Shown here piece by piece: positions 26,635-35,234 of a stretch of DNA of 64,000 nucleotides. The notes under the pieces are model-generated. The model did not search any database. It saw nothing but the letters and a program-made list of their open reading frames with translations, and was not told the origin of the DNA. Source of the stretch: Pedococcus aerophilus (GTDB lineage: Bacteria > Actinomycetota > Actinomycetes > Actinomycetales > Dermatophilaceae); the NCBI RefSeq assembly GCF_039532215.1, contig NZ_BAAARN010000003.1:388485-452484 (forward strand). The letters run 5' to 3'. Position 1 is the first letter of the stretch. Every line of letters starts with the position of its first letter. The translations under genes and the position numbers were made by a program.

Positions 26635-27681
26635 GTGAACCCCGTGGACCCGCTCGCCGACCTCCCTGCCGACTGGTCGACGCGGGTCCCTTCCAGCCAG
26701 GACGTCCCGGCGCTGGTGCGCCTCGTCGCCCGGCACCACGAGGCCACCCGGGGCTCGAGCTCGGTCGACGACACCACCGTCGCCCTCGAGGTCGCCGGCC
26801 ACGCCTCGTGGACGCGCCGGCAGCTGCTCGTGACCGACGGCGGCGGGGAGGCCCGCGCCTGGGTCCGCGTCCACGACCGTGCCGCCGGCCGCACCGTCGT
26901 CGACCTCACCGTGGACCCTCAGGTCCCCGAGCGGCACGACGTCGCCGCGGCGCTGTTCGCCTGGTCGGAGGCCACCGCCCTCGACATCGCCGGTCAGCGC
27001 GGACTGCCCGGCACGCAGCTCGACTCCGGCCGCCACGTGGGTGACGAGGACCAGGCCCGCTGGCTGGCCGCGGCGGCATACACGAAGGTGCGAACCTGGC
27101 TGCAGATGTCACGCCCCGTCGCCGCCGCCGAGGCGGGTGAAGGCGTCTTGTCCGGGCCCAAGCCCGGGGTGACCGTGCGACGCGTGGCGACCCACGAGAA
27201 CGGCCTCCCCGTCGCCGGCGACCTCCAGACGGTGCACCAGATGCTCGAAGAGTCGTTCGCCGACCACTTCAACTCCTACCGCGAGAGCTTCCCGGAGTTC
27301 GTCCAGCGGCTGCGGGAGGACCCCGGCCACCGGTGGGACCACTGGTGGATCGCCGAGGTGGAGACCGACGGGGAGGTGCTTCCCGGCGGGGCGATCGTCA
27401 GCTCGGTGCTCGCGCCCGACGGCGACGGCGTGGAGGGCAGCTACATCGACTACATCGGGGTGCACCGCCGCGCGCGTGGCCGTGGTGTCGCGAAGGCGTT
27501 GCTGCACACCGTGATCCGCGACGCCGCCGAACGCGGGCGCAACCGCGTCAACCTCGAGGTCGACGCAGACTCCCCCACCGGCGCAGACGGGTTGTACGTG
27601 TCCATGGGCTGGGCGACGAGGTACCGGACCGAGTCCTGGCACCGCGACGTGACGCTCGGCTCGGGCGGCGTCAGCCGCTGA
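26635..27681 (+). CDS. Double-GNAT-domain N-acetyltransferase
   Basis: About 348 residues from GTG 26635. Two GNAT repeats are apparent. The C-terminal one is complete, with the acetyl-CoA loop HRRARGRGVAKALLH near residue 280 and YVSMGWATRYRTESWH at the end. The N-terminal one (about 15-160) is degenerate. The two-domain plan resembles mycothiol synthase, but the sequence does not look like MshD, so the substrate is open. A GAGGAT box 6 bases before the GTG fits leaderless spacing loosely. The gene ends 11 bases inside the convergent amidohydrolase gene. Confidence 0.8.
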   Translation: MNPVDPLADLPADWSTRVPSSQDVPALVRLVARHHEATRGSSSVDDTTVALEVAGHASWTRRQLLVTDGGGEARAWVRVHDRAAGRTVVDLTVDPQVPERHDVAAALFAWSEATALDIAGQRGLPGTQLDSGRHVGDEDQARWLAAAAYTKVRTWLQMSRPVAAAEAGEGVLSGPKPGVTVRRVATHENGLPVAGDLQTVHQMLEESFADHFNSYRESFPEFVQRLREDPGHRWDHWWIAEVETDGEVLPGGAIVSSVLAPDGDGVEGSYIDYIGVHRRARGRGVAKALLHTVIRDAAERGRNRVNLEVDADSPTGADGLYVSMGWATRYRTESWHRDVTLGSGGVSR

Positions 27682-28570
27682 GGCCCATCAGCCGCGCACC
27701 GTTGTGCCACAACACCTTGCGCAGCCAGTCCTCACCGAGGTCGAGGCGGTGCAAGGCCTCCAGCTGGTGGGCGTAGGGGTACGGGATCTGCGGGAAGTCC
27801 GAGCCCAGGACCACCTTGTCTGCCAACCCTGCCAGCCGGGGCAGGTAGTCGTCCGGCAGGGGTGCGAACTGGTTGGTGAAGTCGGTGCCGACCATGGTGG
27901 TGTCGAGGTGCACCCGGTCGTGGGCCTCCGCGAGGTCGGCGAACGCGTGGTACTCCGACATCCCCAAATGCGCGATGACGAGCGCCAGGTCGGGGTGGCG
28001 CCGCAGCACCTCTGCGACGGCCCCGGGGCCAGTGAACTCCCCTGCCAGTGGGGCAGATCCGGCGTGGAGCACCACGGGCACGCCCGCCTCTGCCAGCACC
28101 GCCCAGGCCTCGTCGAGCAGGGGGTCCAGCGGGCTGAACCGACCGACCTGGACGTGCAGCTTGAACAGTCTCGCGCCCGAGCGAAGCGCTGCCCGCACCA
28201 CGTCGGCCGACCCGGGCTCGGGGAAGAACGTGGCGCTGTGCACGGCATCGGGGATGCGCGCCGCGAACTCGGTGCCCCACTCGTTGAGCCACTGCGCCAT
28301 CCCAGGCTTGTGGGCGTAGTTCAGCGCCGGGATGCCCCGCAGTCCCAGGGACCGTACCTCGTCGAGGCGGCCGGCCTCGTCCTTGCGGTAGGTGATCGGC
28401 CACGCCATGCCGTAGTGCTCCTCGGCGTGGTCGAAGTAGTCCCAGACCTTGCGCAGCATGGGTTCCGGCATGAAGTGCACGTGGATGTCGGCCAGCCCCG
28501 GCAGGCCGAGTGCGCGCCAGTAGGCGGGCACGTCCTCGTCACGAGTGGGTGCGATCGGTGTCTCGCTCAC
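27671..28570 (-). CDS. Amidohydrolase-2 family metal-dependent hydrolase
   Basis: A 299-residue TIM-barrel hydrolase. Metal-ligand motifs seen are ADIHVHFMP (about residues 27-35), KLHVQVG (lysine/His region), VLHAGS, IAHLGMSEY and the late GSDFPQIPYPY. The family hydrolyses or decarboxylates cyclic substrates. It is co-transcribed after idi (GTGA overlap), so it may act in the neighbouring isoprenoid/polyketide pathway, but it could be unrelated. A TACGGT box at leaderless spacing lies within idi coding sequence and may be chance. Confidence 0.82.
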   Translation of the reverse strand: MSETPIAPTRDEDVPAYWRALGLPGLADIHVHFMPEPMLRKVWDYFDHAEEHYGMAWPITYRKDEAGRLDEVRSLGLRGIPALNYAHKPGMAQWLNEWGTEFAARIPDAVHSATFFPEPGSADVVRAALRSGARLFKLHVQVGRFSPLDPLLDEAWAVLAEAGVPVVLHAGSAPLAGEFTGPGAVAEVLRRHPDLALVIAHLGMSEYHAFADLAEAHDRVHLDTTMVGTDFTNQFAPLPDDYLPRLAGLADKVVLGSDFPQIPYPYAHQLEALHRLDLGEDWLRKVLWHNGARLMGLSG

Positions 28571-29199
28571 GCACCCACCGTACGAGCCGCGGGCGGCAGC
28601 AGCGCGGCGTCACCCTCGGACCAGCGACGCGGGTCCGGCCCCCGGGCCTCCAGGAGCCGCAGCTGTCGGGCGCACCACGGCGACACCGCGCGCAGCCCGA
28701 ACCGCACCTCCTCGCAGACCTCGTTCCACCCGACCCAGGTCGCCTCGTGCACCTCGCTGGGGTCGAGCCGCAGCCGTTCCCCGGGTGCCAGCCACGCGGC
28801 ATACACGGGGCACAGCTCGTTCTCCACCACGCCATGCATCTCCGCGCGGTAGCGGAAGTCGGGAAGGAGGAGGCGCACGCCCGTGACCTCGACACCGAGC
28901 TCGAGCCGCGCGCGGCGGTGCACCGCGTCGGCGAGGTCCTCCCCGGGTGCGGGGTGGCCGCAGACCGAGTTCGTCCAGATGCCGGGGAAGGTCGCCTTGT
29001 CGAGGGCGCGACGGGTGAGCAGAAGATGGCCGTCGCTGCCGAAGACGTAGGCGGAGAACGCGAGGTGCAGCGGGGTCCGGTCGGTGTGCACCGTCGCCTT
29101 GGGGGCGGTGCCGACGGCCGAGCCGTCCTCGTCGAGCAGCACCACCACCTCTGCGCCGTCCTTCGTGGTGGTGGACGCGGCAGTCGGGTCGAGGCTCAT
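28567..29199 (-). CDS. idi: Isopentenyl-diphosphate delta-isomerase (type I)
   Basis: A 210-residue Nudix-fold isomerase. The catalytic Cys80 is in TNSVCGHP and the catalytic Glu in ENELCPVY (about residue 128). The metal-binding histidines fit the family. It interconverts IPP and DMAPP, supplying the prenyl starter. The start at 29199 overlaps the reductase stop (ATGA). Its placement in an operon with a type III polyketide synthase and opposite a UbiA prenyltransferase suggests it boosts prenyl donor supply for that pathway. Confidence 0.92.
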   Translation of the reverse strand: MSLDPTAASTTTKDGAEVVVLLDEDGSAVGTAPKATVHTDRTPLHLAFSAYVFGSDGHLLLTRRALDKATFPGIWTNSVCGHPAPGEDLADAVHRRARLELGVEVTGVRLLLPDFRYRAEMHGVVENELCPVYAAWLAPGERLRLDPSEVHEATWVGWNEVCEEVRFGLRAVSPWCARQLRLLEARGPDPRRWSEGDAALLPPAARTVGA

Positions 29200-30269
29200 C
29201 GCACCCTGCCCAGCTCGTGCACCGCTCCGGCGAAGACCGGGCGCAGCACCTCGGCGGCCGGGACGATCGCCCGGCGCACCCACGCGGGCCGCGTGGCCTG
29301 GACGAGCCCCTGGGTGAGCACCGTGTAGCGCCACGTGGCCTGGCGCCAACCTCGTTCGTACGCCTGGGGACGCCCTTCACCGACTGCCGCGACGGCCGCC
29401 GTCGCCTGCGCGAGGCCGAGGGCGATCCCTTCACCGGTAAGGGCGTCGACGTAGCCGCTCGCGTCGCCGACCAGCAGGACGCGCCCCGCCACCCGGCGGC
29501 GCGTGCGCTGCCGGAGCGGACCGGCGCCGCGCAGGGCACCACCGACTCCGGACGCGCCGTCGAGCCTGGCCATCAGCTCAGGGAACTGCGCGAGCAGCGC
29601 GTCGTAGCCGGCGCGGCTGCGGGTGAGGACGGCGACCCCGACGAGGTCGGGGGCCACCGGCGTGACGTACGCCTCGGCCGTCGGGCCCCAGTGGACCTCC
29701 ACGTGGTCCGACCACGGCGCGATGACGTGGTGGAGCCGCAACCCGTAGCGGGCGTGGCCGCGCGTCGGCGCCTCCAGACCGAGGGCGCGGCGCACCGGGG
29801 AGTGCAGCCCGTCGGCGGCGATGACGTATCGCGCCCGCACCGGCGGGCCCGGACGGCGCCCCTGCTCGTGGGTGGCGACCGTGACGCCCTGGTCGTCCTG
29901 GGCGAGGTCGGCTGCGGACAGGGGAAGCACCTCGACCCCCGTGGACCCGGCCACCCCGGTGAGTGCGGCGTGCAGGGTCGTGCGACGCACCCCTCTGCCC
30001 ACCCCGTCGCGGAACTCCGCTCGCGCGCTCCGGCTACCTGCGAGGTAGCAGATTCCCTTGAGCGGCACACCTTCCGGCTCGACGCCGAGGCGGGCCAGGG
30101 CAGCGACCGCACCGGGCATCAGCCCTTCGCCGCAGGCCTTGTCGATGGCACCCTCGCGGGGTTCCAGCACGACCGTCGACAGCCCCTGGCGGGCAGCCGT
30201 GAGGGCGGTGGCCAGTCCGACCGGCCCGCCGCCGATGACGGCGACGTCGACCACGGTCTGGGCGCTCAT
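29196..30269 (-). CDS. Geranylgeranyl-reductase-family FAD oxidoreductase
   Basis: A 357-residue flavoprotein. The FAD site VAVIGGGPVGLATAL is at about residues 9-23, then DKACGEGLMPGAV, typical of geranylgeranyl reductases and p-hydroxybenzoate-hydroxylase-like enzymes. The second FAD motif VLLVGDASGYVDALTGEGI lies near residue 275. It may hydroxylate an aromatic polyketide, as the flavoprotein of the Streptomyces srs operon does, or reduce a prenyl chain. It overlaps idi and the methyltransferase (ATGA at each end). Confidence 0.86.
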   Translation of the reverse strand: MSAQTVVDVAVIGGGPVGLATALTAARQGLSTVVLEPREGAIDKACGEGLMPGAVAALARLGVEPEGVPLKGICYLAGSRSARAEFRDGVGRGVRRTTLHAALTGVAGSTGVEVLPLSAADLAQDDQGVTVATHEQGRRPGPPVRARYVIAADGLHSPVRRALGLEAPTRGHARYGLRLHHVIAPWSDHVEVHWGPTAEAYVTPVAPDLVGVAVLTRSRAGYDALLAQFPELMARLDGASGVGGALRGAGPLRQRTRRRVAGRVLLVGDASGYVDALTGEGIALGLAQATAAVAAVGEGRPQAYERGWRQATWRYTVLTQGLVQATRPAWVRRAIVPAAEVLRPVFAGAVHELGRVR

Positions 30270-30799
30270 GACGACGGCACCGCTGCGTCGAGGTCGGCGA
30301 GGGCTCGCTCCTCGGCACGCAGCCGGACGGTGAGCAGCGCCGCGTTGGCGACGGTGAAGACGAGTGCGGTCGCCCAGGCCGTGTGCACCAGCGGCAGGGC
30401 GACCCCCTCGAGGACCACGGCCACATAGTTGGGGTGGGAGAAGAACCGGTACGGTCCACCCGTCACGCGACCGGCTCCGGGGACGACGATGACGCGGGTG
30501 TTCCACTGGTGCCCGAGCGTGCGGATGCACCACCACCGCAACGCCTGGCAGCCGAGGACGACCACCAGCATCGGCCACCCGAGGGCGGCGTGGAACGGCC
30601 GGTCGGCGAGGAGCACCTCGACGACGGCGCCGACGAGCAGCGCGGTGTGCAGCACCACCATGAACGGGTAGTGGCCGAACCCCGTCTCACGACCACCGCG
30701 CGCGAACGCCCACGCCGTGTTGCGCTTGGACACCACGAGCTCGGCGAGCCGCTCGAGGCCGACGGCGAGGACGAGGACGACGAAGAGTGCGACGGACAC
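30266..30799 (-). CDS. Isoprenylcysteine carboxyl methyltransferase-family protein
   Basis: A 177-residue membrane methyltransferase with four or five spans. The SAM-binding C-terminal motif is RVTGGPYRFFSHPNYVAVVLE near residues 115-135. Bacterial members beside type III polyketide synthases methylate phenolic or pyrone lipids. GTG 30799 is two bases after the polyketide synthase stop. It overlaps the FAD enzyme gene (ATGA). The true substrate is inferred from neighbours. Confidence 0.85.
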   Translation of the reverse strand: MSVALFVVLVLAVGLERLAELVVSKRNTAWAFARGGRETGFGHYPFMVVLHTALLVGAVVEVLLADRPFHAALGWPMLVVVLGCQALRWWCIRTLGHQWNTRVIVVPGAGRVTGGPYRFFSHPNYVAVVLEGVALPLVHTAWATALVFTVANAALLTVRLRAEERALADLDAAVPSS

Positions 30800-30801
30800 G
30801 G

Positions 30802-31896
30802 TCAGGCCCCCGGCGCGTTCAGCAGGACCATCTCGAGGCAGAACCCCGGACCCATCGCCAGCAGCATCCCGTGGGTGCCGGGGGCCGGCGGCCGGTCGCT
30901 GAGGGTGTCGGCCAGGACGTGCAGGACCGACGCGGACGACAGGTTGCCGATCCGGGCCAGGCTGTCCCAGGTCATGCCCAGCGCGTGCCGGTCGACCTCG
31001 AGCGCGTCCTGCATGGCTTCGAGCACCTTGGGGCCACCGGGGTGGGCGACCCACCAGCCGATGTCGTCGCGGGTCAGTCCGTGGTCGGCCAGGAACCCGT
31101 CCACGTCACCCCGCAGGTTGTCGCGCACCAGGTCGGGGACCTCGACGCCGAGGACGATGCGCAGTCCGCTCGCGCCCACGTCCCACCCCATGGCCCGCTC
31201 CGTGTCGGCATACATCCGGCTGCGGGTGGCGAGGACCCGCGGTGGCGCGGGTTGGTCAGGGTCATCACGCCGCTGCCCGAGCGACGGGTGGTCGGCCCCG
31301 ACCATCACGACGGCGGCGGCTCCGTCGCCGAACAGGCCGCTCGCGACGAGGTTGGCCATCGAGGTGTCGTCACGCTGGACGGTGAGGCTGCACAGCTCGG
31401 TCGACACGAGGACGGCGACCTCACCCGGGTGGCCGAGCAGGTAGTCGTGGACCCGCGCGACCCCCGCCGCGCCTGCGACGCAACCGAGCCCGACGAGCGG
31501 CACCCGCTTCACGTCGTCACGCAGCCCGATCCGGGCGGCGATGCGCGCCTCGACCGAGGGGACGGCGAGCCCGGTGATCGTCGCGGACACGATGAGGTCG
31601 ACGTCGCGGACGGTCAGGCCGGCCGCGGCCAGGGCCTCCTCGACCGCCTGCACGCCGAGGTCCACGGCGACGCGGATGAACTCGTCGTTCGAGGCGCCGA
31701 AGTCCTTGAGCTCGGGGTACCGGTCCAGCGGCAGGGCAAGGTGCCGGAACTCGACCCCCGCGTTGCCGTGGACCCGTTGCAGCAGAGGCAGATTCGGCTT
31801 GTGGGGAGCGAGCACGTCGGCGAAGACCTCGGTGACCTCGCTCTGGGCGTAGCGGTGCTCGGGGAGCGTGCCGCGGACGGAGAGGAGGTGGCTCAC
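30802..31896 (-). CDS. Type III polyketide synthase
   Basis: A 364-residue chalcone-synthase-like enzyme. The catalytic triad is visible: Cys139 in GLGCVAGAAG, His285 in VAHPGGPKV and Asn318 in IGNLSSAS. It would condense an acyl-CoA with malonyl-CoA into an alkylresorcinol, resorcylic acid or pyrone. It leads an operon of methyltransferase, FAD enzyme, idi and amidohydrolase. GTG 31896 is chosen because TAGGCT lies 6 bases upstream; GTG 31902 would add two residues. Confidence 0.93.
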   Translation of the reverse strand: MSHLLSVRGTLPEHRYAQSEVTEVFADVLAPHKPNLPLLQRVHGNAGVEFRHLALPLDRYPELKDFGASNDEFIRVAVDLGVQAVEEALAAAGLTVRDVDLIVSATITGLAVPSVEARIAARIGLRDDVKRVPLVGLGCVAGAAGVARVHDYLLGHPGEVAVLVSTELCSLTVQRDDTSMANLVASGLFGDGAAAVVMVGADHPSLGQRRDDPDQPAPPRVLATRSRMYADTERAMGWDVGASGLRIVLGVEVPDLVRDNLRGDVDGFLADHGLTRDDIGWWVAHPGGPKVLEAMQDALEVDRHALGMTWDSLARIGNLSSASVLHVLADTLSDRPPAPGTHGMLLAMGPGFCLEMVLLNAPGA

Positions 31897-31902
31897 CTCC
31901 AC

Positions 31903-31908
31903 AGCCTA
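31903..31908 (-). promoter_or_regulatory. -10 box of the polyketide operon
   Basis: On the minus strand TAGGCT is followed by 6 bases and GTG 31896. It is part of a divergent pair with the UbiA gene promoter. Confidence 0.55.
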
Positions 31909-31962
31909 GGCACGCCGGGCCCCTGCGCGCCTCACTCATGCGCCGGTGGTGGCCGGGCCACC

Positions 31963-31968
31963 TACGCT
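31963..31968 (+). promoter_or_regulatory. -10 box of leaderless UbiA gene
   Basis: TACGCT is followed by 6 bases and ATG 31975. Confidence 0.5.
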
Positions 31969-31974
31969 GCGGGT

Positions 31975-32799
31975 ATGGGGGACGGGAGGAACCGGGCAGC
32001 CGCGGCCGTGGGGCTGCTCGCCGCAGCCCACCCCGCACCGGCGGTCGCCGTCACGGTCCTCACCGCCCTGCTCGCCCTCGCCGCCGGGCACTCGCCGGGG
32101 TCGGGCGCCCTGGTCGTGGCCGCCGTAGCCGCCGGGCAGCTCGGGATCGGCTGGTCCAACGACCTCGTCGACGCCGACCGGGACCGCCGGGTCGGGCGTG
32201 CCGACAAGCCCGTCGCCACGGGGGCTGTACCCGAGCGCATGGTGCGCCTCGCCACGGCGGTGTCCCTCGCTGCGTGCGTCGCCCTGTCCCTCGCCTGCGG
32301 CTGGCGCTCGGCCCTCGTTCACCTCGCGCTGGGGGTGGCGTCCGGGTGGGCCTACAACCTCGGCCTCAAGCGGACTCCCCTGTCCGCGGTCCCGTATGCC
32401 GTGGCGTTCGGTGCGCTCCCGGCGGTCGTCAGCTTGGCCCTGCCCTCGCCGTCGTGGCCACCCGCGTGGATGGTCGCCACCGGTGCGGTCCTCGGGGTGG
32501 GAGCCCACCTGCTCAACGCCCTGCCCGACCTCACCGACGACGAGGCGACGGGGGTGCGCGGCCTGCCCCAACGGCTCGGTGCGGGCACGGTCCGGGTCGT
32601 GGCTCCCCTGGTCCTGCTCGCCGGGTCTGCCGTCGCCGTGCTCGGTCCACCCGGCCCGGTGCCGCTGTCGGCGGCCGTCGCCGGGGGCCTGTGCGTCGCC
32701 CTCGCCGCGGTCGCCGTGGGTGGGCGTGGCCGGGTGCCGTTCCTCGCCTCGATCGCCATCGCGCTCGTCGACGTGGTCAGCCTCGTCCTGCGCGCTTGA
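31975..32799 (+). CDS. UbiA-family aromatic prenyltransferase
   Basis: A 274-residue membrane protein with about eight spans. The diphosphate-binding motif NDLVDADRD starts at Asn62 (N-D-x2-D-x3-D). The second acidic motif LPDLTDDE is near residues 183-190. It transfers a prenyl chain to an aromatic acceptor. Its position opposite the type III polyketide synthase/idi operon, sharing a 78-base promoter region, suggests the acceptor is that polyketide; a menaquinone or heme role is less likely from context. Confidence 0.88.
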   Translation: MGDGRNRAAAAVGLLAAAHPAPAVAVTVLTALLALAAGHSPGSGALVVAAVAAGQLGIGWSNDLVDADRDRRVGRADKPVATGAVPERMVRLATAVSLAACVALSLACGWRSALVHLALGVASGWAYNLGLKRTPLSAVPYAVAFGALPAVVSLALPSPSWPPAWMVATGAVLGVGAHLLNALPDLTDDEATGVRGLPQRLGAGTVRVVAPLVLLAGSAVAVLGPPGPVPLSAAVAGGLCVALAAVAVGGRGRVPFLASIAIALVDVVSLVLRA

Positions 32800-32865: not shown

Positions 32866-33708
32866 TCAGATCGGTTCGAGCAACCGCTGGAGGAAGGTCT
32901 GGGTCCGCGGGTGCTGGGGGTTGGCGATGACGTCCTGGGGCCGTCCCCGTTCGACGATGAGGCCGCCGTCGATGAAGAGCACCTGGTCGGCCACCTGCTG
33001 GGCGAACCGCAGCTCGTGGGTCACCACGACCATCGTCCAGCCCTCGGCCGCCAGCGCCTTCATCACGCCGAGCACGTCGCCGACGAGCTCGGGGTCGAGG
33101 GCGGAGGTGGGTTCGTCGAAGAGCACGAGGTCGGGGCGCAGGGCGAGCGCGCGGGCGATGCCGACGCGCTGCTGCTGGCCACCCGAGAGCTGGAACGGGA
33201 ACTTGTCGGCGTGCTCGGACAGGCCCACCTTGTCCAGGAGCTGGCGAGCGCGCTCCGTCGCCTCGGCCTCCGGCTCGTGCTGCACGACGACCGGTCCCTC
33301 GGTGACGTTCTCCAGGGCGGTCTTGTGGGGGAACAGGTGGTGCGCCTGGAACACCATGCCGCTGTGCCGGCGCAGCGTCATCAGCTCGGTGCGCTGGGCC
33401 TTGGGCAGCCGGCCACGGGCCCCGGGGTTGATGCCGGCGAAGTCGACCGTCGTGTCCCCGATGCGGACGACGCCGCTGTCGGGGACCTCGAGGGCGTTGA
33501 GGGCCCGCAGGAGGGTGGTCTTGCCCGAGCCGGACGGACCGATGACGCAGGTCACCGTCCCGGGATCGACGGTGAACGACACGTCCTCGAGGACGACGTG
33601 GTCACCGAACGACTTGCGGAGGTTGGTGACCACGACGAGGTGCTCCCCGCTGGAGGGCGCGGGGCGGGAGGGCTCAGGGCTGGAGGGCGCGGGGCTGGGA
33701 GTGCTCAT
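32866..33708 (-). CDS. Polar amino-acid ABC transporter ATP-binding protein
   Basis: A 280-residue ATPase of the GlnQ/HisP type. It has Walker A GPSGSGKTT (about residues 54-62), the signature LSGGQQQR (about 165-172) and Walker B LVLFDEPTSALDP. The first 22 residues are Pro/Ser-rich with a duplicated 16-base DNA segment and are probably dispensable. It powers the fused binding protein/permease encoded just upstream; the start codons overlap (ATGA). Confidence 0.92.
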   Translation of the reverse strand: MSTPSPAPSSPEPSRPAPSSGEHLVVVTNLRKSFGDHVVLEDVSFTVDPGTVTCVIGPSGSGKTTLLRALNALEVPDSGVVRIGDTTVDFAGINPGARGRLPKAQRTELMTLRRHSGMVFQAHHLFPHKTALENVTEGPVVVQHEPEAEATERARQLLDKVGLSEHADKFPFQLSGGQQQRVGIARALALRPDLVLFDEPTSALDPELVGDVLGVMKALAAEGWTMVVVTHELRFAQQVADQVLFIDGGLIVERGRPQDVIANPQHPRTQTFLQRLLEPI

Positions 33709-35234
33709 GCGGCGACGAACCTGTTCAGTCGGGTCTCGGTGCGGGACTGGACGAAGGACAGCACGAGGCAGATCACCCAGTAGTAGACGGCTGCCATCCC
33801 GAACAGCGCGAGGAACTCGAAGCTCGGGGCGGCCGCTGTCCTCGCGGCCTGGAAGAGCTCGTTGACGAGGATGACCGCGGCCAGCGAGGTGTCCTTGACG
33901 AGCGAGATCAAGGTGTTGGACAACGGCGGGACGGCGGTGCGGGCCGCCTGCGGCAGGATCACCCGCCGCAGCGTCGTGGTGTAGTCCATGCCGATCGTGG
34001 AGGCGGCCTCCCACTGCCCCTTGGGCAGGCTCTCGACGGACGAGCGGACGATCTCGGCGGCATACCCTCCGACGTTGACGCTGAAGGCGATGACCGCCGC
34101 GAGGAAGGGCTCGATCTTCACCCCCACCTGGGGCAGGGCGTAGAAGATGAGGAAGAGCTGCACCAGCAGCGGGGTCCCACGGATGAAGGAGATGTAGAGG
34201 CGCGCGGCCCCGGAGACCACGGGCTGTCGGGACATCCGCATCAGGCCCACCACGAGCGCGATGACCATGCCGATGGCGAAGCTGATCGCGGTCAGCGGGA
34301 TCGTGGTGGTGATGGCGGCCCGGGCCATCGGCCACGCGTTGTCCTTCATGATCTGCCAGGTGCTGGTCTGCTTCACCTCGGCGCCGAAGTACTTGGCGTA
34401 GATGGTGTCGAGGGTGCCGTCGGCGCGCAGCTCGTCGATGGCCCGGTTGAGCTGCGGGAGGTACCCCGAGTCCTTCTTCGCGGCCAGCACCGACCGGCTG
34501 ACGTCGTCGGTCTCGGCCACGACCTTGACGCCGGCGTCGGGCTTGGTGGCCAGGTAGTTGCGGATCGCGAGCTTGTCGTTGACGAGGGCGTCGACGCGGC
34601 CCTGCTCGAGGTTGTCGATGGCGAGCGCCATGTCGTCGACCGGCACGACCGTCGCACCGGCCCCCTTGGCGACCTCGGCCCAGTTGCTCGTGATGTTCTG
34701 CGCCGACCGCTTGCCCTTGAGGTCGGCGATGGTCTTGATCTGCGTCTCGTCCTTGCGGACGACGAGGACACCGGTCGTCTCGACGTACGGGTCGCTGAGG
34801 TCGTAGCGGGCGTTGCGTTCGTCGTTGAAGGTGATCTGGTTGGCGACCACGTCGAAGCGCCCGGACTCCAGCGCGGCGAACATCGAGTCGAACGGCGTCT
34901 CGACGTACTCCACCTTCACGCCGAGGTTCTCGCCGATCGCGTTCATGACGTCGATGTCGAAGCCGGTCAGGTCGTTCCCCGCGCCACCGTGGTAGCTGAA
35001 CGGCGGGTACACCCCCTCCGTCCCCACCTTGATCGTCGGTGGCAGCTCAGCGGCCCGGACCTCGCCCAAGGGATCGACCTCCCCACCGGAGCTCGTGCTG
35101 TCGGCCGGCACCCCGGCCGATGCACCGGCAGGGGCCGCCGAGGTCGTTGCGCCAGCCGGGGCTGCGGAGGCCGACATCGCCACGACGAGGAGCCCGAGGA
35201 GGACCACGAACAGGGCGGAGGCGGCGCGTTTCAC
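33705..35234 (-). CDS. Amino-acid ABC transporter: binding protein fused to permease
   Basis: A 509-residue fusion. A signal peptide (about 1-28) and low-complexity stretch are followed by a family 3 solute-binding domain (about 50-275: GVYPPFSYHGG, GFDIDVMNAIGENLG, DSMFAALESGRFD). A permease of the GlnP/HisM type fills about 290-505 (IRGTPLLVQLFLIFYALPQ, then EIVRSSVESLPKGQWEAA). The fusion resembles GlnP-type importers of some Gram-positives. The substrate is probably glutamine, glutamate or another polar amino acid. GTG 35234 has TACCGT 6 bases upstream. Confidence 0.9.
   Translation of the reverse strand: MKRAASALFVVLLGLLVVAMSASAAPAGATTSAAPAGASAGVPADSTSSGGEVDPLGEVRAAELPPTIKVGTEGVYPPFSYHGGAGNDLTGFDIDVMNAIGENLGVKVEYVETPFDSMFAALESGRFDVVANQITFNDERNARYDLSDPYVETTGVLVVRKDETQIKTIADLKGKRSAQNITSNWAEVAKGAGATVVPVDDMALAIDNLEQGRVDALVNDKLAIRNYLATKPDAGVKVVAETDDVSRSVLAAKKDSGYLPQLNRAIDELRADGTLDTIYAKYFGAEVKQTSTWQIMKDNAWPMARAAITTTIPLTAISFAIGMVIALVVGLMRMSRQPVVSGAARLYISFIRGTPLLVQLFLIFYALPQVGVKIEPFLAAVIAFSVNVGGYAAEIVRSSVESLPKGQWEAASTIGMDYTTTLRRVILPQAARTAVPPLSNTLISLVKDTSLAAVILVNELFQAARTAAAPSFEFLALFGMAAVYYWVICLVLSFVQSRTETRLNRFVAA

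Follow-up and report, generated by a model that had tools for sequence, protein, structure and literature searches.

The window analysed here is a 64,000-nucleotide (nt) stretch of Pedococcus aerophilus DNA (contig NZ_BAAARN010000003.1, positions 388,485 to 452,484), and it contains a compact locus in which a type III polyketide synthase (PKS) is followed by genes for an integral-membrane methyltransferase, a flavin adenine dinucleotide (FAD)-dependent enzyme and an isopentenyl-diphosphate isomerase (Idi), and is faced across a short divergent gap by a membrane prenyltransferase of the UbiA family. This locus is probably a phenolic-lipid cluster of the agq type, known from Actinoplanes missouriensis, in another lineage and with an Idi of its own. 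The product class is already described for agq; the additions of note are the Idi and, in relatives of the locus, a geranylgeranyl (GG) reductase. Gene content, operon structure, intact catalytic motifs and co-conservation are all directly observed. The five genes named by the original prediction, an earlier reading of this DNA, are present where it placed them and their families are borne out by profile matches; it overlooked a sixth, an amidohydrolase gene, which shares a GTGA overlap with idi and so belongs to the operon. The features are as follows.

31975-32799, plus strand: UbiA-family membrane prenyltransferase, 274 amino acids (Pfam UbiA, 96.5 bits)
31897-31974, no strand: divergent intergenic region (78 nt, counted from a PKS start at 31896); TAnnnT-like boxes seen by eye
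30802-31902, minus strand: type III PKS of the SrsA/PkqA/AgqA kind (Chal_sti_synt_N/C)
30266-30799, minus strand: ICMT-family integral-membrane methyltransferase of the SrsB kind, GTG start (Pfam ICMT, 95 bits)
29196-30269, minus strand: FAD-dependent monooxygenase-like protein of the SrsC kind (FAD_binding_3, 74 bits)
28567-29199, minus strand: type I Idi, gene idi (NF002995, 231 bits; IPP_isom_1, 138 bits)
27671-28570, minus strand: Amidohydro_2-family protein (Pfam, 115 bits)

The junctions along the minus strand, from the PKS through the ICMT, FAD and idi genes to the amidohydrolase, are a 2-nt gap, ATGA, ATGA and GTGA, and because they are this tight the five genes very likely form one transcript. 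Most aligned relatives start the PKS at GTG 31896, from which the 78-base divergent gap of the original prediction is correct, and an alternative GTG at 31902 would shorten it to 72 nt. TAnnnT-like boxes stand just upstream of both the PKS and UbiA genes, and are absent from some rows in an alignment of nine intergenic regions; leaderless transcripts from this divergent region are possible.

The original agq paper is said to be that of Awakawa et al. 2011, and AgqB is reportedly a methyltransferase, AgqC a monooxygenase and AgqD a UbiA-like prenyltransferase. Actinoplanes missouriensis 431T is described as making 6-alkyl-4-O-dihydrogeranyl-2-methoxyhydroquinones (PMC3569393), agqA-D are given as the cluster behind its alkyl-O-dihydrogeranyl-methoxyhydroquinones (PMC7692728), and the alkylresorcinols of AgqA are reported to undergo prenylation and hydroxylation (PMC10896814). 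The original prediction knew of no described product for such a set of genes, and these compounds supply one, whilst its proposal of a prenylated, methylated and oxidised polyketide survives, by inference, as the best explanation of the locus. The agq product carries all three kinds of modification (methylation, hydroxylation and prenylation) and is a hydroquinone prenylated on oxygen, as opposed to a free quinone. Like agq, the window has an alkylresorcinol-kind type III PKS with the Cys-His-Asn residues and clustered partners, namely the methyltransferase, the FAD gene and a membrane prenyltransferase with intact motifs; unlike agq, it has idi in the operon and the amidohydrolase.

Judged by its motifs and its predicted fold, the UbiA protein has the marks of an active prenyltransferase. 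Both Asp motifs are intact (N62-D63-x-x-D66-x-x-x-D70 and D185-x-x-x-D189), their residues are invariant in 17/17 and 25/25 aligned rows of two alignments, and the AlphaFold model, with a mean predicted local distance difference test score of 95.5, resembles the UbiA homologues 4tq3, 4tq4, 4od5 and 4tq5 at Z 20.4-21.4. The model aligns with a UbiA homologue bound to geranyl diphosphate (GPP) at Z 21.4 (root-mean-square deviation 3.3, 246 aligned) and with one bound to dimethylallyl diphosphate (DMAPP) at Z 21.3 (3.6, 258 aligned). Searched as a single sequence, the protein had no PDB match at E 1, and a PDB profile search found chlorophyll a synthase at 7.9e-5.

It is extremely improbable that this protein is instead the house-keeping MenA or heme O synthase, or a lycopene elongase of the CrtEb kind, placed here by chance. 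The carotenoid cluster of Rathayibacter toxicus is indeed reported to hold a UbiA-like crtEb along with a type I isomerase (PMC5552033), but the genome has its MenA (L005, 304 bits to NF004751) and its heme O synthase (L003, 368 bits to NF003349) as separate, dedicated genes elsewhere, which speaks against the MenA and CtaB roles, and it has no match to phytoene synthase (PF00494), which speaks against a carotenoid elongase; we rejected these roles accordingly. The locus UbiA also lies below every NCBIfam cut-off: it scores 23.5 bits to the heme o synthase model, against a cut-off of 210.3, and no MenA model is among the nine NCBIfam families that it matched at 0.001.

In the PKS the catalytic residues C141, H287 and N320 are invariant in 18/18 rows, a pattern which does not separate a resorcinol from a pyrone output, Trp284 stands ahead of the catalytic His, and the best PDB match is Pks11 of M. 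tuberculosis (376 bits). The ICMT-type methyltransferase had no match in PHROGs. Idi is well supported by profile (NUDIX, 64 bits; IPP_isom_1, 138 bits vs. a cut-off of 105.8) and was the sole type I isomerase found in the genome (one match; type II was not searched), which also carries IspH and two polyprenyl synthases.

The FAD protein is harder to place, its best NCBIfam match being GG-red-SF at 107.5 bits, with 102.9 bits for the copy in L072, both below the cut-off of 158.8 in the two copies scanned. Its model scores Z 37.3 to the halogenase PltA, and Z 32.1 to p-hydroxybenzoate hydroxylase in a near tie with the Z of 31.0 to a GG reductase-like protein, so that the fold leaves hydroxylase and reductase undistinguished. 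The protein contains a GDAxGYVDALTGEG motif, which looks like that of GG reductases. On the strength of this motif, the best family match and the near tie, the enzyme could be read as a GG-type reductase saturating the prenyl group and not as a ring hydroxylase, a reading we regard as decidedly improbable, for the score stays under the family cut-off, the halogenase and the hydroxylase give the higher Z scores, nearly all of the 21 related cassettes with a second GG-reductase-family gene keep the operon FAD gene too, and published accounts of the srs operon make its third gene a hydroxylase (PMC9927152, PMC6669644). Separately, in one relative (L048:2227-3045) the PKS-adjacent FAD gene occurs in three separate matching pieces, as if broken, which may be a sequencing error in a draft contig.

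To follow the cassette across species, one genome per species was scanned and the best 80 named loci were kept; we used the 64 with at least 3.5 kb either side of the PKS, counting partners within 4.5 kb centre to centre. The ICMT gene was found in 63, the FAD gene in 62 and UbiA in 57, with all four genes together in 57. The UbiA gene lay upstream and divergent in 27 of these, upstream in the same direction in another 27 and downstream in three. Idi joined 22 of the 64 loci (21 with UbiA), and a second FAD protein, the GG-reductase homologue, joined 21 (20 with UbiA). Nearest among the best 80 was Phycicoccus sp. Root101 (L060; PKS 92%), in line with an origin of the window in this group, to which Pedococcus bigeumensis, a species assigned to Intrasporangiaceae, also belongs. 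Conservation of the five-gene set, which the original prediction had asked about, thus holds for ICMT, FAD and UbiA and only in part for Idi.

A class sample of 394 genomes gave a similar association. PKS matches at 1e-40 occurred in 152, of which 117 had a best place (one per genome) at E 9.3e-85 or better, the remaining 35 being more distant PKSs. In 63 of the 117 the UbiA gene was <5 kb away, on the opposite strand in 43 with a median gap of 159 nt, and this, with the named loci, supports the predicted link between UbiA and the PKS operon. UbiA lay elsewhere in 19, on another contig in 16 of them, where draft assemblies could hide a link, and, with UbiA places listed down to 1.9e-40, it was present but unplaced in nine. 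The outcome that the original prediction had set against itself, a MenA or heme enzyme beside polyketide genes that are not co-conserved, was not what was found: both of those enzymes have genes of their own, and the polyketide genes are co-conserved with UbiA.

We also compared gene families across 103 regions (102 loci and the window), a set which includes the window's genus several times and two duplicate pairs (L035 of G007, which is L060 of Phycicoccus sp. Root101, and L040 of G006, which is L062 of Pedococcus bigeumensis). Beyond the PKS, ICMT, FAD, UbiA, Idi and GG-reductase homologue, no gene family occurred in more than nine of the 103 regions, as called by a gene caller based on GC content at third codon positions (GC3), which under-calls UbiA and missed the window's own. 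A single origin of the PKS-linked UbiA was rejected, as the UbiA tree (76 of 116 rows, a quick method, long outgroup branches) needs eight changes for the cassette label and shows clustering only. In four Streptomyces (L118, L122, L123 and L134) a divergent UbiA gene adjoins an srsABC-like operon. These four are S. fimicarius, S. globisporus, S. microflavus and S. anulatus, which we take to be of the griseus group; each gave a single UbiA match, next to the PKS.

As the original prediction proposed, the PKS-ICMT-FAD core of the window matches that of srsABC and pkqABC. It has the PKS-methyltransferase-FAD oxidoreductase operon that defines the srs/pkq type, and resembles in this the operons of Streptomyces griseus and Mycobacterium smegmatis; unlike the window, these are reported to consist of three genes and to yield quinones that carry no prenyl group (PMC9927152, PMC6669644), namely alkyl-methoxybenzoquinones (PMC9927152). 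The window could accordingly make an unprenylated alkyl-methoxybenzoquinone, with UbiA serving a different substrate or becoming active solely in other conditions, an alternative which we consider unlikely though still credible. Besides the shared core and the unprenylated quinones reported from a Streptomyces and from mycobacteria (PMC9927152), it can call on Mycobacterium asiaticum (L139), which has the PKS and no UbiA match at 1e-5, on one family of the class sample, f22, in which 0/19 PKS genomes have UbiA at 1e-15, and on the many genomes that have UbiA without this PKS. It leaves unexplained the presence of UbiA within 4.5 kb in 57 of the 64 named loci and the addition of Idi and GG-reductase homologues to the same cassettes, and the agq cluster, as described, shows that such a set is able to make a prenylated product.

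A number of observations nevertheless weigh against the agq-type reading that we prefer. Seven of the 64 named loci have no UbiA nearby (L078, L085, L104, L109, L129, L138 and L139); a genome search for UbiA relatives, made for four of these, found them elsewhere for L104 and L109, two weaker or partial ones for L078 and, as noted, none at 1e-5 for L139. UbiA is absent at 1e-15 in 26 of the 117 PKS genomes, 19 of them from f22, which is probably the Mycobacteriaceae, judging by the M. asiaticum result and multiple PKS copies. Nor is UbiA confined to the cassette, being found at 1e-15 in 199 of the 394 genomes. Idi is missing from 42 and the GG-reductase homologue from 43 of the 64 named cassettes, and the window itself has Idi and no cassette GG reductase. 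The griseus-group UbiA adjoins the same PKS-methyltransferase-FAD core whose described Streptomyces products are unprenylated, and the likeness of the window to agqA-D was judged by gene content and published description. From the literature, the quinones reported from Streptomyces sp. MNU77 are unprenylated (PMC9927152), no UbiA figures in the description of srsABC from Marisediminicola antarctica (PMC6669644), loseolamycins are unprenylated alkylresorcinols although the gene table of their bacterial artificial chromosome includes UbiA, only losA having been activated (PMC7587189), and four Phytohabitans strains with agqA-D orthologues are reported to have given no agq product in culture (PMC7692728). 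On the MNU77 case, the words 'prenyl', 'ubia' and 'isopren' are absent from the text of the paper (PMC9927152); the 16S gene of MNU77 is said there to match a S. pratensis strain exactly (PMC9927152), and a S. pratensis type III PKS cluster is described with a 'lycopene cyclase' and UbiA (PMC4239341).

Returning to the agq-type reading, the isoprenoid genes of the relatives bear on it. Related loci join Idi, UbiA and a prenyl-reductase-like enzyme to the PKS operon, a combination whose simplest explanation is that the polyketide receives an isoprenoid. The cassette GG-reductase homologue exceeds the TIGR02032 cut-off of 158.8 in both copies scanned (169.7 and 187.9 bits); the genome of the window has one GG reductase outside the cassette (260.6 bits), ~20 kb from menA. 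This GG-reductase-superfamily gene often lies between UbiA and the PKS, e.g. in Nocardioides (examples are L072:8757-9995 and L116:12589-13716). Half of the carbons of GPP derive from DMAPP, and it is for this reason that Idi makes most sense with a short donor such as GPP. Within the literature searched, we found no account of Idi or GG-reductase additions to the cassette.

We infer each reaction, and the product, from the described relatives. The PKS would extend a fatty acyl-CoA and cyclise it to an alkylresorcinol, which the ICMT-type enzyme would O-methylate, and the FAD enzyme would hydroxylate the ring to give a methoxyhydroquinone, oxidisable to the quinone. At the membrane, UbiA would prenylate the ring or a ring oxygen with a short isoprenoid, which in the known product is dihydrogeranyl, Idi presumably providing the DMAPP that makes up a large share of a short prenyl donor, and in the roughly one-third of relatives that have it the cassette GG-reductase-family enzyme may saturate the prenyl group.

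Similar neighbourhoods are found in other systems. The T3PKS region of Gephyromycinifex aptenodytis has, like the window, UbiA, T3PKS, ICMT and FAD oxygenase together; it is discussed under angucycline biosynthesis, and idi is not mentioned in that discussion (PMC8779670). The losA locus of Micromonospora endolithica resembles the window in its adjacent UbiA, methyltransferase and type III PKS, and differs in having an acyl-CoA-dehydrogenase-like flavoprotein in place of the SrsC kind (PMC7587189). In the case of one cyanobacterial type III PKS cluster, its authors read the prenyltransferase as pointing to prenylation of the product (PMC8086630).

We also chose by hand 32 further loci with UbiA away from this PKS, and nine of these had a UbiA relative ~2-3 kb from a distant type III PKS (26-33% identity). 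Four (L141, L142, L143 and L171) combine the two with the families C11 and C12, represented in L141 by a FAD monooxygenase-like protein and a methyltransferase; the others are L144, L153, L156, L163 and L166. Some of the nine have a losA-like arrangement, L156 with acyl-CoA-dehydrogenase-like and UbiG-like proteins, the gene families of such loci having been scanned in L141 and L156 only. This UbiA branch therefore occurs near type III PKSs with differing tailoring enzymes. Recurrent families were also seen near UbiA relatives in L148, L149, L157, L158, L162 and L168, the neighbours in L148 including CarD and IspF, both of which the published loseolamycin locus also has.

The locus ties the srs/pkq operon, studied as a source of respiratory quinone, to the agq cluster of prenylated hydroquinones; in the literature consulted the two stand as separate examples, and PMC10896814 names both in one paragraph. 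The polyketide quinone of M. smegmatis is described as an electron carrier (PMC9927152), and srsA in S. griseus is linked to beta-lactam tolerance, the function of the agq product being given as unknown (PMC10896814). A broader reading, which we hold to be quite unlikely as a whole, is that outside the mycobacteria the actinobacterial 'polyketide quinone' operon would be a four-to-six-gene pathway ending in a prenyl ether of a hydroquinone, in which UbiA could convert a pool of electron carriers into one of membrane antioxidants or structural lipids and the cassette GG reductase would make the 'dihydro' of dihydrogeranyl. If this were true, the redox carrier would become, once O-prenylated, a para-alkoxyphenol with a chemistry similar to that of tocopherol. 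If UbiA acts in the griseus-group Streptomyces and in the present lineage, the unprenylated quinones there would be intermediates or one branch of the pathway, something that a mass-spectrometric search for known masses could fail to show. For the reduction implied by 'dihydrogeranyl', the cassette-linked GG-reductase homologue offers a concrete candidate.

The amidohydrolase at the end of the operon is probably a passenger. It had no PDB match at 0.001, and it is found near the PKS in 1/64 named loci. Within the genus it has matches in 7/11 genomes (own included) and adjoins the cassette in two of the seven, those of the window and of Phycicoccus sp. Root101 (G007), lying elsewhere in the other five; we rejected it as a conserved core step since it is mostly sited away from the cassette in the genus. 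The gene also occurs at L175 and L176. On the other side of the locus, tail to tail after UbiA, the minus strand carries an ABC transporter protein that unites solute-binding and permease domains, together with an ATPase (32869-35111).

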